Shown here: piece after piece, positions 51,709 to 61,675 of the stretch
How the letters are laid out: every line of letters begins with the position of its first letter
Position numbering within the stretch: position 1 is the first letter of the stretch
DNA from: an uncultured Lachnospiraceae bacterium
Lineage (GTDB): Bacteria; Bacillota; Clostridia; Lachnospirales; Lachnospiraceae
Length of the DNA: 64,000 nucleotides
Direction: 5' to 3'
Assembly (NCBI GenBank): GCA_903789615.1
Contig: CAIFEV010000003.1
Location: 186,001-250,000 of the forward strand
Position numbers and translations under genes: made by a program
Notes under the pieces: generated by a model
Seen by the model: the letters and a program-made list of their open reading frames with translations, nothing else
Database searches by the model: none
Told to the model about the DNA's origin: nothing

Positions 51709-54095
51709 ATGCTTTTGAGCGCTATGCGCCGTTTATACAGGATTACATCTACCGCTGCGGGTGGAGAAGCCTGCGCGCCGTGCAGGCAGCGGCAGCGGAT
51801 GCCATCTTTGACACGGATGACAATGTGCTTCTGCTGGCTTCGACAGCTTCCGGGAAAACGGAGGCGGCATTTTTTCCGATCCTGACACTGCTGTCCGAAA
51901 ATCCCTCCTCGTCAGTGGGGGTCATATACATCGGCCCGCTCAAGGCGCTGATCAATGACCAGTTCAGCCGCCTGAGTGATCTGTGCGCAGAGGCAGGTGT
52001 TCCGGTGTGGCACTGGCACGGAGATGTCTCCGCCGCGCACAAGGCGAAGCTTCTAAAAAATCCGTCCGGCATTCTGCAGATAACGCCGGAGTCACTGGAA
52101 GCGCTGCTTCTGCACAAACACGGATATATCCCGAAACTGTTCGGGGATCTTCGGTTTATCGTCATTGATGAGGTGCATTCTCTGATGCGGGGCGCAAGAG
52201 GCGAGCAGTGTCTCTGCCTGATGGAGAGGCTTTCCCGTATGGCCGGTGTCAATCCGCGGCGAATCGGACTTTCGGCTACGATCGGCGATCCGGAGATGAC
52301 AGGAAAGTTTCTCTCAGCCGGAACCGGAAGGGACTGCGTGATCCCGAGGATTTCCGCCAGGGGACAGACGATGCGTCTCTCGGTGGATCAGTTCTGGATT
52401 CCGGACCCGATGCGGGAAGCGGGAACGGATAAAACGGGAGCAGCGGATAAAACGAAACGCCAGGAGACGGCTGAGGACGCGGAGGTGATATCCGGCATAG
52501 CACTTGATAAAGACGGCACGGCGCCGTCTGCGGCAGCCAGTGTAAAGACGGACCGGGCGCCGGCGGCAGCGGACGCGGGGCTTGCCTATATTTTTGAACA
52601 CACGCGCGGGAAAAAGTCTCTGATATTCTGCAACTCCCGGGAGGAGGCTGAAGGCGTCACCACGACGCTGCGGCAGTACTGCGAAGCCCGTCATGAGCCG
52701 GACCGTTTTCTCATTCATCACGGAAACCTGTCGGCGTCCTACCGTCAGTCGGCCGAGGAAATCATGCGGGACGAAAGCGCGAATTTCGCCACGGTGACGA
52801 CTTCAACGCTGGAGCTGGGAATCGATATCGGACAGCTGGAACAGGTGTTCCAGATCAACGCGCCCTTCACGGTGTCGTCCTTCCTTCAAAGGATGGGACG
52901 CTCCGGACGGCGCGGAGAACCGCCACAGATGCGGATCGTCATACGGGAGCAGATGCAGCAGGCCCGTGACATGGCGCCTGCCTGTGTCCCGTGGAGCCTG
53001 ATTCAGGCCTGTGCCCTCATCCAGCTGTATCTGGAGGAACGCTGGGTGGAGCCTCCCAGACTCAACCCGCTGCCCTACAGCCTTCTGTATCACCAGACAA
53101 TGGCGACACTGGCCTCGGAAGGCGAGATGAGTCCGGCGCAGCTCGCCGGAAAAGTGCTGAGTCTTGCGCCATTTGCCATGGTGAGCAGGGACGATTACAG
53201 GGTACTGCTCAGAGAACTGATCAAAGATGACCAGATTGAGCAGACAGAGAGCGGTGGCCTTATTGTGGGACTGGAAGGGGAGAAGATCACAAACAGCTTC
53301 AAGTTCTACGCAGTCTTTCAGGAAAATGAGGAGTTCACGGTGCGATCGGACTCACAGGAACTCGGCACCATCGTGGCGCCTCCGCCGGCGGGCGAGAAAA
53401 TCGCCATCGCGGGACATGTCTGGGTGGTCGATGAAGTTGACGTCAAGCGTCATGTTGTCTACTGCACGCAGACAAAGGGAAATATTCCGGCATATTTCGG
53501 CCAGTGCCCGGGAGACATCAACACACGGATCCTCGAGCGGATGAAGCAGGTGCTGAGCGAAGACCGGATGTATCCGTATCTGCAGAATCACGCCCGGCTG
53601 CGGCTGCAGGAGGGCAGAAGCCTGGCGGCGGAGGCGGGCTTCCTTAAATGTCCGCTCATTAACCTGGGCGGCAGCATGTGGGCTCTGTTCCCGTGGCTCG
53701 GGACCTATGCGTTTCTCGCGCTGGAGAGGCTTATAAAAATCAAGTGTGCGCCGCTGCTTGGCATCAAAGGGCTTGAGGCGTCAAGGCCGTACTATATGCA
53801 GTTCACCATGGCAGCAGCACCGGAAGAGTTCTTCCGGACTCTTGTTGACGCGGCAAAAACAGACTTTCCTGCGAAAGATCTCGTCTATAAGACGGAAGTC
53901 CCGGTCTTTGAAAAGTACGACGTCTTTGTGCCGGCTGACCTCGTGCGGAAAAGTTTCGCGCAGGGAGTGCTGGATATCGATGGTATGCGCCGACGGGTTC
54001 TTTCCTGGGAGACGTACACGCATGAGCCGGTTACCGGGAAAGCACAGGCCAGAATTACCGGACGGAGAGGGGCTGCGCCGGATTCTTCTGTATAA
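51705..54095 (+). CDS. DEAD/DEAH-box helicase, Lhr/BrxHI-like
   Basis: ASTASGKTEAAF, IGPLKALINDQ, VIDEVHSL, GLSATIGD, STLELGIDIGQLEQV, FLQRMGRSGRRG; ATGA overlap with the preceding gene. Confidence 0.88.
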   Translation: MNAFERYAPFIQDYIYRCGWRSLRAVQAAAADAIFDTDDNVLLLASTASGKTEAAFFPILTLLSENPSSSVGVIYIGPLKALINDQFSRLSDLCAEAGVPVWHWHGDVSAAHKAKLLKNPSGILQITPESLEALLLHKHGYIPKLFGDLRFIVIDEVHSLMRGARGEQCLCLMERLSRMAGVNPRRIGLSATIGDPEMTGKFLSAGTGRDCVIPRISARGQTMRLSVDQFWIPDPMREAGTDKTGAADKTKRQETAEDAEVISGIALDKDGTAPSAAASVKTDRAPAAADAGLAYIFEHTRGKKSLIFCNSREEAEGVTTTLRQYCEARHEPDRFLIHHGNLSASYRQSAEEIMRDESANFATVTTSTLELGIDIGQLEQVFQINAPFTVSSFLQRMGRSGRRGEPPQMRIVIREQMQQARDMAPACVPWSLIQACALIQLYLEERWVEPPRLNPLPYSLLYHQTMATLASEGEMSPAQLAGKVLSLAPFAMVSRDDYRVLLRELIKDDQIEQTESGGLIVGLEGEKITNSFKFYAVFQENEEFTVRSDSQELGTIVAPPPAGEKIAIAGHVWVVDEVDVKRHVVYCTQTKGNIPAYFGQCPGDINTRILERMKQVLSEDRMYPYLQNHARLRLQEGRSLAAEAGFLKCPLINLGGSMWALFPWLGTYAFLALERLIKIKCAPLLGIKGLEASRPYYMQFTMAAAPEEFFRTLVDAAKTDFPAKDLVYKTEVPVFEKYDVFVPADLVRKSFAQGVLDIDGMRRRVLSWETYTHEPVTGKAQARITGRRGAAPDSSV

Positions 54096-54209
54096 TTATT
54101 CACGAAATCTGCATTATATTCTTGACGCACCGGCTTGTCAGATGATACCATCATGGGAAACATTCCGGGTTTCGGGAAGAAAGGACAGATCCGGAAGGAG
54201 GAGGAAAAC

Positions 54210-55079
54210 ATGAAATTAAAGAAAATTGCAGCGGCAGCCCTCACGGCTGTCATGGGATTCGGACTTGCTGCCTGCGGCAGCACTTCCGGCAATACTGCGG
54301 CGACATCCGGCAGCGCCCAGGCAACGACAGCGGCAGCCGGCGCCACGACAGCAGCGGCTTCCGGGAGCACTTCCGGCAGCTTCACGACAGCCGAAAAAGG
54401 CGTTCTGCATGTTGCGACCAATGCGACGTTCCCGCCGTACGAGTCCACCACAGATGATGGCGGCTTCACCGGCATCGACATTGACCTGGCTAATGCCATC
54501 GCTGAAAAGCTTGGACTGACCGTGACGATCGACAACATGGACTTCGGATCCATTGTGGCGGCCGTTTCCGGCGGCAAGTCCGACGTCGGTATGGCCGGCA
54601 TGAGCATCACCGACGAGCGCAAGAAGAGCGTTGACTTCACGGATACGTACGCGAACTCCAAGCAGGTTATCATTGTCACGGAAGACTCCGATATCAAGAC
54701 ACCGGATGATCTTTCCAAGGCTGAAAAGATCGGATGCCAGGAGGGTACGACCGGATATATCCTCTGCTCGGACACAACCGAAAACGGCGGATACGGTGAG
54801 GATCACGTGATCGCCTATAACAACGGAATCATCGCCGTGCAGGCGCTTCTGTCCGGCAAGGTTGACGCCGTTGTCATCGATGAGCAGCCGGCCAAGGAAT
54901 ATGTAAAGTCCAATCCGGGAACCAAGATTCTTGACACTGCATTTGCCGATGAGGACTACGCGATCTGCGTGTCCAAGAACAATCCGCAGCTTCGCGAGGC
55001 GGTCAACAACGCACTCAAAGAGCTTAAGGCGGACGGAACCGTTCAGAAGATCATCGACAAGTACATCTCGGCAAACTGA
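54210..55079 (+). CDS. Amino acid ABC transporter substrate-binding lipoprotein
   Basis: Lipobox LAAC, Ala/Thr/Ser linker, periplasmic-binding-protein family 3 (FTGIDIDLANAIAEKLG...YGIAVSK-type end). Confidence 0.93.
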   Translation: MKLKKIAAAALTAVMGFGLAACGSTSGNTAATSGSAQATTAAAGATTAAASGSTSGSFTTAEKGVLHVATNATFPPYESTTDDGGFTGIDIDLANAIAEKLGLTVTIDNMDFGSIVAAVSGGKSDVGMAGMSITDERKKSVDFTDTYANSKQVIIVTEDSDIKTPDDLSKAEKIGCQEGTTGYILCSDTTENGGYGEDHVIAYNNGIIAVQALLSGKVDAVVIDEQPAKEYVKSNPGTKILDTAFADEDYAICVSKNNPQLREAVNNALKELKADGTVQKIIDKYISAN

Positions 55080-55100
55080 TCCGGGACTGATACTATCGAA

Positions 55101-55149
55101 AACAAACAGAGCTGCAGCACTTTTCCGGAAGCGCTGCAGCTCTGTTTGT
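55101..55149. terminator. Bidirectional terminator between convergent genes
   Basis: AACAAACAGAGCTGCAGC...GCTGCAGCTCTGTTTGTT. Confidence 0.9.
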
Positions 55150-55173
55150 TGTATAAAGCTGTCGCCAGGCAGC

Positions 55174-56172
55174 TCACGCACGGTTTCTGGTCACGATGAA
55201 AATGCCGCTGCACACGAGTGCCAGAGCTGTAAGCAGCAGGGCGGGACTTGCAGTCTGTTCGTGCAGAATGAGAAAGGAGAGCAGCACGCCGAATACCGGC
55301 GTCAGGAGAGAAAAGGCCGTGACGCGGGATACCGGGTTGTATTTGAGCAGCAGACTCCAGAGCGAGTAGGCCGCGGCGCTGACCAATGCGAGATAGAAAA
55401 GAAGCAGGACGCCGGCAGCCGGGAAGATACCCAGATGACCGCCGGAAAGAATCCCGGCAGCAAGAAGCATCAGCCCGCCTGCGGCAAACTGCCAGGCAGA
55501 GAGCAGGACGGGACTGAAGCGCCGTGAGAATTCCTTCATGAAAACCTGCGAGAAGGCAGCGGATACGGTTGAGAGCATGACCAGGATATCACCTGCCGGA
55601 CTGGCGCCGGAAGCGGAAGAAGCGAGCAGGGCCGGGATGTTGATCACGATGATTCCGGAGAAACCGATGAGAATTCCGGCGATTTTCCGGGGTGTCAGGC
55701 GCTCCTGGCGGAAGATGAGCGAAGAGATGAGAATTGCAAAGAACGGGCTGGTTCCTTCAATAATGCTTCCACGCACACCGGGAGTGCGGGCCAGTCCGAT
55801 GTAAAAGAAGAAGTACTGGATGGCGGTCTGAAACAGGGCGAGGACGATGACAGGCACAAAGGCGCCATGCCCCGGGAACAGCGATTTCAGTCTGCTGACC
55901 GCTTCCCTGCTTTCTGGCACTGCATACGGCGTGCCGGGGGCCGGATGTTTCATCGCACCGCTTACAAAAATAAAGAAAAGAAGCATTAATCCGGCCAGGG
56001 TAAAGCGCATGCCGGCAAATACAAGCTGCGCAGCGGTGTCATCTGATGTGACAGCCAGAAGGGCGTACCCTGCCTTGATTCCTGGAAACGCGCTTCCCCA
56101 GAGAAAATTCGCGGCCAGTGCAAAGACAAGAACACAGGGCCAGCCGGTCAGAACATTCTGTTTCGTTTCCAA
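55174..56172 (-). CDS. EamA/DMT-family transporter (TTG start inferred)
   Basis: Ten hydrophobic helices, GSAFPGIKAGYALL, EGTSPFFAILISSLIFRQERLTPRKIAGILIGFSGI; SD AGGAGGG about 9 nt before TTG 56172. Confidence 0.88.
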   Translation of the reverse strand: METKQNVLTGWPCVLVFALAANFLWGSAFPGIKAGYALLAVTSDDTAAQLVFAGMRFTLAGLMLLFFIFVSGAMKHPAPGTPYAVPESREAVSRLKSLFPGHGAFVPVIVLALFQTAIQYFFFYIGLARTPGVRGSIIEGTSPFFAILISSLIFRQERLTPRKIAGILIGFSGIIVINIPALLASSASGASPAGDILVMLSTVSAAFSQVFMKEFSRRFSPVLLSAWQFAAGGLMLLAAGILSGGHLGIFPAAGVLLLFYLALVSAAAYSLWSLLLKYNPVSRVTAFSLLTPVFGVLLSFLILHEQTASPALLLTALALVCSGIFIVTRNRA

Positions 56173-56294
56173 GGTTTTGTCCCTCCTGCGCGAAACTGTG
56201 CGCGGTGCATGAAAACATGGTACACTTGGGGTATATTCTATCACGAAATCAGGTGAATGCACTGCGCGGTGCATTTCCGGCGAAAGGAGTAACT

Positions 56295-58085
56295 GTGAAG
56301 ATCACAGTTCCGGGGTATTACCCGAAGTTCCGGTGTATAGCGGGCGCGTGCACGGATACGTGCTGCGCGGGGTGGGATGTCGACGTGGATGCGGCCGCGT
56401 ATGGCCGGTATAAAAAAATAATCGAAAACGAAAACACACCGATTGCCTGCCGGCTCAAAGAGGTATGCGTGCCGGATGAGGACGGCGGGTGCACGTTCCG
56501 GCTTGGAAAAGATTTGCGCTGTCCGTTTCTGAACGAAGAAAACCTCTGCGACCTGATAACGCAGAAAGGAGAAGAGGCTCTCTGTGAGACCTGCGCCGAC
56601 TTCCCGCGGTTTAAAACCGCGTACGGAAACCGGCTGGAGACCGGCCTGGCGCCCTCTTGTATTACGGCGGGACAGATCATGCTCTCTTCGCCTCTGCCCT
56701 TTACACTTGTGAGCGGCGGGGAGAACGGAAGGTCCCCGGAGGAAAATGACATCGATCCGCAGGAATTTTTCCGCCTTAAAAAGATACGGAAGAACATGCT
56801 TGCAAAGATCAACGATACGGCTTCGGATATCACCGGTGCACTGCTGTTCTGCCTCTGCGGGGGAACAGGAGAAGATATTCCGTCGGATGACATCACGGCA
56901 GCCGGAGGGGAGACGTACCGGAATACGGAAGAGCATCTTCTGGATGCATTTGCCGGAATGGAGATCATCAACCCGGACTGGAATCTCGTACTGCAGCGGG
57001 AGCGGAAGCTGAAAGAACATCTGCAGGAGTCGCCTGCCGGCGAGTGGGGGAGACTTCTGCGCTCAATGTACCGCGGCACTCCTGCTCTTGACGCAGAGGC
57101 GCGGCAGATCGCCGCCTACGACGTGTACCGGTATCTTCTGCCGGCCGTTTACACCGGGAATGAGCTGTGCCGGCGCAAGATCGCCGTGTTTACGTATCTT
57201 GTGACACAGCGGATGTATGCAGGGTACTACTTTGCTCACGGAGATCTTCCTTTTTCGGCGAGGGTCGACCTGCAGCATCTGTGGTCGCGGCAGTTCGAGC
57301 ATTCCTACGTGAATTTCCGCCATTACAGCCGCCTGCTTTCGGGAAGTGTCCGCTACGGACGGCACAGGCTCACGGCCGTGCTTGCGCGGGAGCAGCTTGA
57401 GCGCACAGCCGGCATGCCCCGGTTTGCAGCGGCCGGGATGCAGATCCCGCGCGTGCAGGATGAAGAGCAGCTTCGGCAGGTCCTGGGCCGTTTTGAAGTG
57501 CTGCTGTCTCCGGAAGAGCGCCGCCGGGCCGCCGGGATCAGGAAACTGTCTGACAGGGTGCTGTCTGTCGCGGGGCGGCTTCTGTATGAAGAACTCCGGA
57601 GCCGTTTTCTTGGCGGAAACACAGAGGACAGCGATAATTTCTTTCTCACGCCCTGGGAGCTTGTCCGGCGCATCACGGCCCGCCGGGCCGCCGGTGAGAG
57701 CTTTCCGCCGATACGGGAAGGGATCAACGGAAAGCCGATGGATGCGGAAGGCGCCGTACATTTTTCCATTGCGCATTCCAAATCCGCGGTCGTGTGTGCC
57801 GTATCGGACAGATGCTGCGGCATCGATATGGAGGACAGAAACCGCAAGACGACCAGAATGCTGGAGAAGATCTTTACAGATGCGGAACTGGGAGAGCTGG
57901 AAGGACTTTCCGGCCCCGCACGGATGCGCAGGACGGTCCTGCTGTTTACCCGGGCGGAGGCGGAGGTGAAACTCACGGGTGAGGGCATCGGCGGCCTGCG
58001 CGCCAGAAAGCAGAAGACAGCAGGAAATCTCATCCTTACGGAAGAAGTAAAGGGACACTTCATATCGCTTGCTTTTTTGCGTTGA
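56295..58085 (+). CDS. FliB-like (lysine N-methylase family) cysteine-cluster protein fused to an Sfp-type 4'-phosphopantetheinyl transferase domain (GTG start)
   Basis: N-terminus VPGYYPKFRCIAGACTDTCCAGWDVDVD...CPFLNEENLCDLI...LCETCADFPRF = FliB family. C-terminus HFSIAHSKSAVVCAVSDRCCGIDMEDRN...IFTDAELGEL...LFTRAEAEVKLTGEGIGGL = PPTase motifs. One uninterrupted ORF. Confidence 0.85.
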   Translation: MKITVPGYYPKFRCIAGACTDTCCAGWDVDVDAAAYGRYKKIIENENTPIACRLKEVCVPDEDGGCTFRLGKDLRCPFLNEENLCDLITQKGEEALCETCADFPRFKTAYGNRLETGLAPSCITAGQIMLSSPLPFTLVSGGENGRSPEENDIDPQEFFRLKKIRKNMLAKINDTASDITGALLFCLCGGTGEDIPSDDITAAGGETYRNTEEHLLDAFAGMEIINPDWNLVLQRERKLKEHLQESPAGEWGRLLRSMYRGTPALDAEARQIAAYDVYRYLLPAVYTGNELCRRKIAVFTYLVTQRMYAGYYFAHGDLPFSARVDLQHLWSRQFEHSYVNFRHYSRLLSGSVRYGRHRLTAVLAREQLERTAGMPRFAAAGMQIPRVQDEEQLRQVLGRFEVLLSPEERRRAAGIRKLSDRVLSVAGRLLYEELRSRFLGGNTEDSDNFFLTPWELVRRITARRAAGESFPPIREGINGKPMDAEGAVHFSIAHSKSAVVCAVSDRCCGIDMEDRNRKTTRMLEKIFTDAELGELEGLSGPARMRRTVLLFTRAEAEVKLTGEGIGGLRARKQKTAGNLILTEEVKGHFISLAFLR

Positions 58086-58110
58086 CATTTGCCGGGGGTG
58101 CGCGTACCAT
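58082..58110 (+). promoter_or_regulatory. SigA-type promoter TTGACA-N17-TACCAT for the mgtE leader
   Basis: -35 at 58082-58087, -10 at 58105-58110. Confidence 0.6.
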
Positions 58111-58171
58111 CTATATGCAGTGCGCAGGGAGATGTGCCTGCGTTTTATTCTGAACAAGGGGGTGACAAGTG

Positions 58172-58270
58172 ATGAGCGACGGAGACAGTTGCGGCCGACC
58201 TGCTTTTGGGCCGGAAGAGCAGACACGGAAGAAGCTTGGCACTGCCACCTTTTTCTTTGTGTGCTTTTAA
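58172..58270 (+). CDS. Putative 32-codon leader ORF upstream of mgtE (MSDGDSCGRPAFGPEEQTRKKLGTATFFFVCF)
   Basis: Strong SD AAGGGGGTGA at 58156-58165 with normal spacing to ATG 58172; stop 58268-58270. Confidence 0.45.
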   Translation: MSDGDSCGRPAFGPEEQTRKKLGTATFFFVCF

Positions 58271-58365
58271 AGTGAGCCGGCTCTTTTCAGAGACTGGATA
58301 ACTGCCTCCTTTTTAGCGGTACACGAGGTGTTTTTTAAAAAACACCGGCTAGAAGGAGAAAACCA

Positions 58366-59715
58366 ATGGAAAAGGAAAGAATCATCGAGGAGCTGGAGAG
58401 GCTCCTTAAAAACCATGACCTGACGGCGCTGCGGACGATGCTGTCGGACATTCAGCCGGTCGATCTGGCTGATATTTTCGAGCAGGTGCCGGAGGAGACG
58501 AGGCTGGTCCTGTTCAGGATTCTGCCGAAGGACCTGGCGGCGGACACATTTGCCGAGATGGATCATGATGAGCAGGAACAGCTGCTCACCAATTTCACCG
58601 ATCAGGAAGTGAAGAATGTCCTGAACGAGATGTACACCGATGACGCCGTGGACATGCTGGAGGAGATGCCGGCGGGCTTTGTAAAGCGGGTACTCGCGAA
58701 GGCAACGCCGGACACGAGGGCAGACATCAATGCGCTGCTCAAGTACCCGGAAGGGTCGGCCGGCGCGGTTATGACCACGGAATTTGTGAGCCTGAAGGCG
58801 ACGATGACGATCTCGGAGGCACTGCGCTGGATCCGGGCGCACGGCGATGACCGGGAGGATGTGTACACCTGTTATGTGACGGATGCCAACCGGAAGCTGA
58901 ACGGCGTGCTGACGGTCCGCGAGATGCTTTTGTGCAAGCGCGACGCGTATGTGTCCGAGCTGATGGAGGACAACATCATCTCGGTGAAGACGACGGACGA
59001 CCGGGAGCTGGCGGCTCAGCAGCTGGCCCGCTACGATCTGAACTCTCTGCCGGTCGTGGACGGAGAGGGACGGCTGGTCGGCATCATAACCGTAGATGAT
59101 GCCATCGACGTCCTGCAGCAGGAGACCACCGAGGATTTCCAGAAGATCGCCGGCACCACGCCTTCCGAGGAACCCTATCTTAAGACACCTGCATGGAAGA
59201 TGGCGGGGAACCGCATTGTCTGGCTGCTGGTTCTCATGATCTCCGACATGATTTCCGGAGGCATCCTCGGCTCCTTCGAGGATGCGCTCACAGCGCTGCC
59301 GGTCCTCATCACCTTTATCCCGATGCTGACCGATACGGGCGGAAACGCCGGCAGCCAGTCCTCGACGCTGGTGATCCGCGGCCTGGCACTGCATGAGATC
59401 TATGTCCGCGACCTGCCGCGGGTACTCTGGAAGGAATTCCGCGTGGCGATCATCTGCGGTTCGATCCTGGCGGCGTTCAACTACGTCCGTCTCAGCATTC
59501 AGTACCCGGGACAGCAGATGGTGGCGGTAACGGTGGCAGTTGCCATGTTCTTCACCGTCATGATGGCGAAGGCGATCGGCGGCGTGCTGCCGCTCATCGC
59601 GACGAAGCTGAAGATGGATCCGGCTCTGATGGCCTCACCGCTTATCACAACCATCGTCGATGCGGCTTCTCTGCTGATTTATCTGAACGTGGCCAAGGCA
59701 CTGCTTAAAATCTGA
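58366..59715 (+). CDS. mgtE: Magnesium transporter MgtE
   Basis: N domain LADIFEQVPEETRLVLFRILP, tandem CBS, TFIPMLTDTGGNAGSQSSTLVIRGLAL. Confidence 0.95.
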   Translation: MEKERIIEELERLLKNHDLTALRTMLSDIQPVDLADIFEQVPEETRLVLFRILPKDLAADTFAEMDHDEQEQLLTNFTDQEVKNVLNEMYTDDAVDMLEEMPAGFVKRVLAKATPDTRADINALLKYPEGSAGAVMTTEFVSLKATMTISEALRWIRAHGDDREDVYTCYVTDANRKLNGVLTVREMLLCKRDAYVSELMEDNIISVKTTDDRELAAQQLARYDLNSLPVVDGEGRLVGIITVDDAIDVLQQETTEDFQKIAGTTPSEEPYLKTPAWKMAGNRIVWLLVLMISDMISGGILGSFEDALTALPVLITFIPMLTDTGGNAGSQSSTLVIRGLALHEIYVRDLPRVLWKEFRVAIICGSILAAFNYVRLSIQYPGQQMVAVTVAVAMFFTVMMAKAIGGVLPLIATKLKMDPALMASPLITTIVDAASLLIYLNVAKALLKI

Positions 59716-59724
59716 TGGCAGATG

Positions 59725-59772
59725 CAAAAACACCGGAACCTGCTTGCTTTAAGCAGATCCCGGTGTTTTTAA
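59725..59772. terminator. Bidirectional terminator between mgtE (+) and pyrG (-)
   Basis: AAAAACACCGG...TGCTTGCTTTAAGCA...CCGGTGTTTTT. Confidence 0.9.
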
Positions 59773-59801
59773 AATTATGCCGGATTCCGGTGAGAGAACC
59801 A

Positions 59802-61415
59802 TCAGCGGTTCTTTTCCCCATACTCCTTTGCCGCGCCGATGAAGCCGCGGAAAAGCGGATGCGGGCGGTTCGGACGGGACTTGAATTCCGGATGTGCCTG
59901 CGTCGCGAGGAAGAACGGATGGTCTTTCAGCTCGATCATCTCGACGATGCGGCCGTCCGGGGAGATGCCGGAGAGGTCCATGCCATTTTCCATCATAACT
60001 TCGCGGTAATCGTTGTTCACCTCATATCTGTGGCGGTGGCGCTCACTGATGCGCTGCTTGCCGTACAGACGGAAGGCTGTGGAATCCGGATCGAGCACGC
60101 ACGGATATGCACCGAGGCGGAGGGTTCCGCCGATGTTGTCGATATCCTCCTGATCCGGCATGAGATGGATGATCGGGTGGGTTGTATTCTCGTCAAATTC
60201 GACGCTGTTGGCGTCTTTGTATCCCAGAACATTTCTTGCAAATTCCACGAGAGAGAGCTGCATGCCGAGGCAAAGACCAAGGAACGGGATTTTATTCACG
60301 CGCGCGTATTCAATCGCGTCGATCATTCCCTCGATGCCGCGGTCGCCGAAGCCGCCCGGAACGATGATTCCGGATACACCGGCAAGCTGTCCGGCCACAT
60401 TGTCTTTTGTGACCTGCTCGGAATCCACCCAGCGGATCTTCACGTTCACATCATTGTAGACACCGCCGTGCTTCAGGGCTTCCACGACGCTGATATACGC
60501 GTCATGCAGCTGCGTGTACTTACCGACGAGAGCCACCTCGACGGTATCCCTGAGATTCTTCCAGCGGTCGATCATGTCGGTCCATTCGGTGAGGTCCGGC
60601 TCCGGGCACGGAAGGTGCAGGCACTCGCAGGCCACCTGCGCGATGTGCTCCTTCTCCAGTGCCAGCGGCGCCTCGTAGAGGATGCCGACATCCAGGTTCT
60701 GGATGATGTGCGTCTCCGGAACATTGCAGAACAGAGCGATCTTCTCGCGCATATCCTGCGGCAGCGGATACTCCGTGCGGCACACGATCATATCCGGCTG
60801 GATGCCCATGCTCTGCAGTTCCTTCACTGCATTCTGCGTCGGCTTGGTTTTCATCTCGCCGGAAGCGCGCAGATACGGGATCAGCGTGACCTGCAGGAGC
60901 ATCGCGTTCTCACGGCCGACTTCCTGCTGAAACTGGCGGATCGCCTCGAGGAACGGCTGGGACTCGATGTCGCCGACTGTGCCGCCGACCTCGATGATGC
61001 AGATCTTGGTATCCTTTGCAGAGTCATCCCGGTAGAAGCGGCTCTTGATCTCATTGGTGATGTGCGGGATAACCTGCACGGTGTGTCCGCCGTAATCGCC
61101 GCGGCGCTCCTTCTGCAGAACCGACCAGTACACCTTGCCGGTTGTGACGTTGGAATTGCGGGTCAGACTCTCATCGATAAAACGCTCATAATGGCCCAGG
61201 TCCAGGTCGGTCTCACAGCCATCGTCCGTGACGAAAACCTCGCCGTGCTGGATCGGATTCATCGTTCCCGGGTCGATATTGATGTACGGGTCGAACTTCT
61301 GCATCGTCACAGAATACCCGCGGGCCTTCAGCAGTCTTCCCAGCGACGCGGCTGTGATGCCCTTTCCGAGACCGGAAACAACACCGCCTGTGACGAAAAT
61401 ATACTTAACTGGCAT
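59802..61415 (-). CDS. pyrG: CTP synthase
   Basis: [63 protein letters not shown]. Confidence 0.97.
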
Positions 61416-61675
61416 AGATTCCCTCCTGAACAGTACGTCTGCCATAAATTATCTATCATATTATACCCTGTTTTCCGTTAAAGTCTATCGTTATTCCTGA
61501 CCGGTCTCCTCCCTGACATTCCCATGGAAAATGTCAGAATACGAAAGATTCTTAAACTTGCATGAACTGCCAGGAGGGCACCTTGCACGCGCATTTTCCC
61601 GTGGGTATAATACAACTATGCCGAAGAAAGGACGGAGAAGGCGGAAGGTTCCTGCATTCTCCGGGGACAGTCTGT

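Follow-up and report, generated by a model that had tools for sequence, protein, structure and literature searches.

A gene fusion joining a FliB-like protein to a probable housekeeping phosphopantetheinyl transferase in three related Lachnospiraceae

The holo-ACP synthase AcpS is a protein of about 120 residues. In Sfp, a phosphopantetheinyl transferase (PPTase) of Bacillus, we take D107 and E109 to be metal ligands and E151 and K155 to be catalytic; K150 of the WxxKEA motif is usual in Sfp-type PPTases, and we know of no report that it is indispensable. FliB of Salmonella contains a [4Fe-4S] cluster bound by the CX4CX3CC cysteines C17, C22, C26 and C27, and [4Fe-4S]/SAM chemistry has been proposed for this protein (PMC8598068). 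We found no literature on FliB together with a PPTase, or on PPTase fusions in Lachnospiraceae. Here we analyse a single gene that combines both, found in a 64,000-nucleotide stretch of DNA (hereafter the window) from an uncultured Lachnospiraceae bacterium. The fusion is genuine: it joins two known families in a novel combination and is restricted to one lineage. We propose, with a probability of roughly 0.6, that it encodes a bifunctional protein which unites the sole holo-ACP synthase of the genome with a FliB-family methylase of a protein other than flagellin, and that it arose once from linked genes. The C-terminal PPTase would move 4'-phosphopantetheine from CoA to a serine of AcpP and of four other carriers, and the N-terminal FliB-family [4Fe-4S] half would use SAM to methylate lysines of a non-flagellin protein.

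The fused gene occupies positions 56295 to 58085 of the + strand, as are all features below, in a single open reading frame of 596 codons plus TGA, starting with GTG at 56295, stopping with TGA at 58085 and free of internal stops. All FliB and Sfp motifs quoted in the original prediction were located within this frame. A ribosome-binding site, AAAGGAG (56283 to 56289), precedes the start by 5 nt and is also found in hRUG884 and UBA4285, the two other species carrying the fusion. Immediately 5' of this site stands a near-palindrome, AATGCACTGC/GCGGTGCATT (56256 to 56275), which is kept in all three fusion species and is operator-like, a putative operator. A direct repeat, TGCGCGGTGCAT, lies near it at 56199 to 56210. 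Rfam searches for structured RNA gave no match in the region 54000 to 61600, and PADLOC gave none that would indicate a defence role for the gene.

By its sequence, the N-terminal half is a FliB-family protein with a predicted [4Fe-4S] site. The FliB-like domain (residues 1-342, 56295 to 57320) matched the NCBIfam FliB profile NF038110 over residues 6-342 and profile positions 1-371 of 373 (E=8e-53), scoring 180.3 bits against a curated cut-off of 85 and bearing out the FliB signature first read from the sequence. The predicted cluster site (56334 to 56366) has a spacing, C14-X4-C19-X3-C23-C24, identical to the CX4CX3CC of Salmonella FliB, and its four cysteines were 100% conserved among 53 FliB proteins. 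A second cysteine group (C76, C85, C97, C100 and C122; 56520 to 56660) was 94-100% conserved in the same 53 proteins; in all, the fusion keeps 39 of the 40 alignment columns that are at least 90% conserved, nine cysteines included. Similarity to the annotated Salmonella fliB, detected by tblastn over residues 1-237, was 26-27%, and the FliB profile matched no relative of solved structure. This half is thus classified with FliB and is most likely a SAM-using protein-lysine methylase. The genome contains two more FliB-like genes (L111:5462-6706 and L112:4662-5756), one a strong match and one below the cut-off, neither adjoined by a PPTase gene.

The original prediction remarked on the absence of flagellar genes from the window; for flagellin this extends to the whole genome, in which the search for Flagellin_N (PF00669) gave no match. 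Across a sample of 299 Lachnospiraceae, whose membership was inferred from genus counts, 68 genomes encoded FliB together with flagellin, 70 had FliB alone, 87 had flagellin alone and 74 had neither, and the presence of the two was uncorrelated (Fisher p=0.42). About half of the FliB-encoding genomes of this sample therefore lack flagellin, despite the flagellin-methylase name of FliB. Because FliB and flagellin are independent across the 299 genomes, "flagellin lysine-N-methylase" cannot be right as a name for much of the family. Because, in addition, this genome is itself without flagellin, the FliB half of the fusion probably acts on something else. By analogy to Salmonella FliB, lysine methylation of another protein by [4Fe-4S]/SAM chemistry is the most economical inference, and carrier proteins, as well as the attached PPTase, would be natural candidates, because FliB proteins of this clade and PPTases are encoded by linked genes, as described below.

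Orthologous fusions were found in other species. hRUG884, a Lachnospiraceae metagenome assembly, contains a full-length orthologue with 74% identity. In UBA4285, fusion residues 1-381 run to a contig end, and in G005, residues 363-596 begin at a contig end; because these two ends have about 57 identical bases in common, the halves are most likely one fusion gene split by assembly. The original reading of an open frame with no stop between the domains thus holds in the window, in the full-length orthologue and across the matching contig ends. An alignment with the separate proteins of a close relative (G010) places the junction at about residues 351-380 (57345 to 57434), a linker which connects the C-terminal helix of FliB to the N-terminus of the PPTase, both parts being full length and joined end to end. 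Comparing the window with hRUG884, we obtained dN/dS values of about 0.14 for the FliB part and 0.13 for the PPTase part; residues 351-400 were the least constrained (dN 0.37, dN/dS 0.29). Both halves are under purifying selection. Near the junction, the methionines have no ribosome-binding site and are not shared by all three fusion species, which argues against a separate PPTase made by internal initiation; a single fused protein is therefore expected. A survey of the fusion across the family had been suggested, and it showed that at least three related Lachnospiraceae carry it; among the matches listed, it was detected in three close species only: that of the window, hRUG884 and UBA4285. 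Plasmid and phage collections gave FliB-only or PPTase-only matches but never the fusion, and a mobile or phage origin was rejected.

Unfused relatives suggest how the gene arose. In G010, a genome assigned to the same genus as the window, a FliB gene is followed directly by a separate PPTase gene, and the pair adjoins pyrG and ftsH, as the fusion does. FliB and PPTase genes are also adjacent and unfused in G304. Elsewhere ABC-transporter genes stand between them: two half-transporters in G018, an ATPase and two membrane proteins in L104 and L105, and all five in G383. In this last genome (L109:4969-13527), FliB, two ABC half-transporters, an ABC ATPase, two ABC-2 membrane proteins and the PPTase are co-directional, possibly an export operon, and relatives of G383 retain different subsets of the set. 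In a FliB tree of 53 proteins, picked partly for their closeness to the FliB of the window, the nine FliBs with a downstream PPTase formed one clade (support 100/100) that included none lacking this neighbour; in every sampled member, the PPTase follows on the same strand at a distance of 0-7 kb. Within it the three fusions formed one clade (100/100) beside G010 (99/99). The PPTase tree also united the three fusions (100/100) and placed them beside G010 with weaker support (88/77), its deeper forks being poorly supported. The stem branches of the fusions were unusually long in both trees (1.41 changes per column for FliB, 1.86 for the PPTase), which leaves room for a change of function. One alignment (A3), which combined fusions with FliB-only and PPTase-only sequences and misplaced the short rows, was left out of the modelling.

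Synteny and trees together show that the fliB-like and PPTase genes are an old linked pair in their FliB clade. They also show that the fusion arose once, in an ancestor of hRUG884, UBA4285 and the window species, when a fliB-like gene was joined in frame to the PPTase gene that followed it in the same direction. The simplest history would be an old FliB-(ABC)-PPTase operon that lost its ABC genes and then underwent a single in-frame fusion. In G132, the FliB gene (L087, G132:C1:832501-833574) lies in an open frame of 587 aa, as against the usual ~390 aa, and the PPTase of that genome sits elsewhere, away from FliB.

Such a history could also have joined two activities that have nothing to do with each other. 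The fusion may be a bystander event, in which unrelated functions were merged by loss of a stop and kept since the PPTase is essential and the FliB useful in itself, a possibility that we take seriously while holding it to be short of probable. The end-to-end junction between two full-length parts, the weak constraint on the linker and the confinement of the fusion to three close species, among the matches listed, are all in keeping with it. What it fits poorly is the age of the linkage, which preceded the fusion and is clade-wide: chance adjacency would not strongly predict this.

The same linkage may be read as a sign of functional coupling, the FliB half methylating or redox-gating the carrier-protein or PPTase step, for instance by acting on lysines of a carrier protein or of the PPTase, so that the whole would be a regulated holo-ACP synthase. 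A coupled enzyme acting on a carrier protein was also one of the two readings offered in the original prediction. Within the one FliB clade, the FliB-PPTase neighbourhood persists across several genera though the intervening ABC genes differ or are absent; the set of G383 is whole despite flanks that differ from those of its congener G018; and the FliB-linked PPTase is the sole one of its genome, being the only PF01648 match in each of G010, G018, G304 and G383. We nevertheless consider coupling unlikely. Among the matches listed, FliB lies near only a minority of Lachnospiraceae PPTases, and a PPTase near only a minority of FliBs; much of the synteny, pyrG and ftsH included, is common background. 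Adjacency outside the PPTase-linked FliB clade was found once, in G305 and in reversed order, and this one independent case is within chance. The family-wide adjacency and fusion counts are taken from the best ~155 matches and are lower bounds. The specific proposal that a FliB-type [4Fe-4S] enzyme works in the acyl-carrier-protein pathway, modifying or redox-gating the sole holo-ACP synthase or the carrier proteins, seems to us doubtful, somewhat more so than coupling at large. If it were true, lipid synthesis would be tied to iron and oxygen status or to protein-lysine methylation, and FliB-like proteins of non-flagellated bacteria would function outside flagella.

We return to the bifunctional protein that we favour, and to its PPTase half. 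The Sfp-type PPTase domain spans residues 381-596 (57435 to 58082). Its Sfp motifs and presumed ACPS domain were supported by a Pfam match to PF01648 over residues 508-568, at 32.7 bits against a cut-off of 25, and a custom profile (A1) built from this domain and related domains matched Sfp (1qr0) with E=1.2e-16. The Sfp fold that the original prediction implied was predicted for these 216 residues with medium confidence (pLDDT 65.5, pTM 0.65); the full-length model (pLDDT 34) was left out of the analysis. The best PDB fold matches were Sfp (4mrt and 1qr0), human AASDHPPT and mycobacterial PptAb, with probability 1.00 (4mrt_A, E=6e-7). Residues equivalent to five key positions of Sfp are kept: D511 (D107) and E513 (E109), the Mg-binding pair (57825 to 57833), H494 (H90), and E555 (E151) and K559 (K155) within the motif FTRAEAEVK (residues 551-559, 57945 to 57971). 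E151 and K155 are invariant among the 45 PPTases compared. The only key residues changed are K150, replaced by A554, and W147, replaced by F551. A lysine occupies the K150 position in 39 of 45 Sfp-type proteins of the Lachnospiraceae set, and G010, the nearest unfused relative, has a histidine there. A divergent activity, suspected from the altered FTRAEA motif, is thus plausible given the two substitutions, but the change is milder than implied: because the metal-binding and catalytic residues are kept, the PPTase half is likely active.

The suggestion that the fusion serves as the housekeeping holo-ACP synthase gained good support. The genome assembly is 99.57% complete in 21 contigs, and searches of it with PF01648 and with profile A1 each returned one match, the Pfam match being the fusion gene. 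A further acpS, for which a check had been advised, was not found genome-wide with TIGR00516 even at E<=10, although gaps between the 21 contigs could in principle hide one. In each of the two remaining fusion genomes PF01648 likewise matched once, and among the matches listed Lachnospiraceae usually have one PPTase, either AcpS-sized or Sfp-sized. The genome encodes five carrier proteins whose serine motifs are intact (LGLDSLD, LGVDSLD, LGVDSMN, ILDSLAF and VLDSFAI), the first mapping to the plsX-acpP-rnc locus. With a sole PPTase and five intact carriers, it is very probable that the PPTase half acts as the housekeeping holo-ACP synthase. Every carrier domain found in the genome lies in a short open frame (77-139 aa), and therefore no modular NRPS or PKS system is indicated. 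PPTases occur in other long frames in the family: an AcpS-type PPTase begins a 696-aa open frame in G162 (L094:2577-4664), apparently a different PPTase fusion, and in G020 (L043:944-2584) an Sfp-type PPTase takes up part of an open frame of 547 aa, the long remainder of which is unassigned.

It could still be argued from the K150 and W147 substitutions and the long stem branch that the PPTase half has lost its catalytic activity and that the carrier proteins depend on a different PPTase that escaped recognition. This is highly improbable in our view: the equivalents of D107, E109, H90, E151 and K155 are all kept, dN/dS is 0.13, three profiles find no other PPTase in the genome, and G010, with its histidine at K150, likewise has its linked PPTase only. 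That two genes were joined by an error of assembly or sequencing, or that a stop is read through, is ruled out by the conserved in-frame linker and by the same fusion in independent assemblies of other species.

Our preferred reading, a sole holo-ACP synthase fused to a non-flagellin methylase, makes the gene a concrete lead to a role of FliB outside flagella, the partner being a probably essential enzyme, and a case of a presumably essential PPTase evolving within a two-domain protein. The fusion shares with FliB a full-length match to NF038110, and the C-terminal PPTase is particular to it; moreover the flagellin on which the flagellin methylase acts is absent from the genome of the window. 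The adjacent pairs of G010 and G304 and the FliB-ABC-PPTase sets of G018, G383, L104 and L105 match it in FliB clade, gene order and strand, but they are unfused and have up to five ABC-exporter genes in between. It resembles AcpS in its probable role as sole holo-ACP synthase, whereas the acpS model TIGR00516 does not match its PPTase sequence. The likeness to Bacillus Sfp (1qr0/4mrt) covers the fold, the size of ~216 aa, the Mg ligands, the catalytic E and K, and the GKP and FSIAHS motifs; unlike Sfp, the fusion has FTRAEA for WxxKEA, is joined to FliB, and apparently serves a housekeeping function, as against the secondary metabolism served by Sfp.
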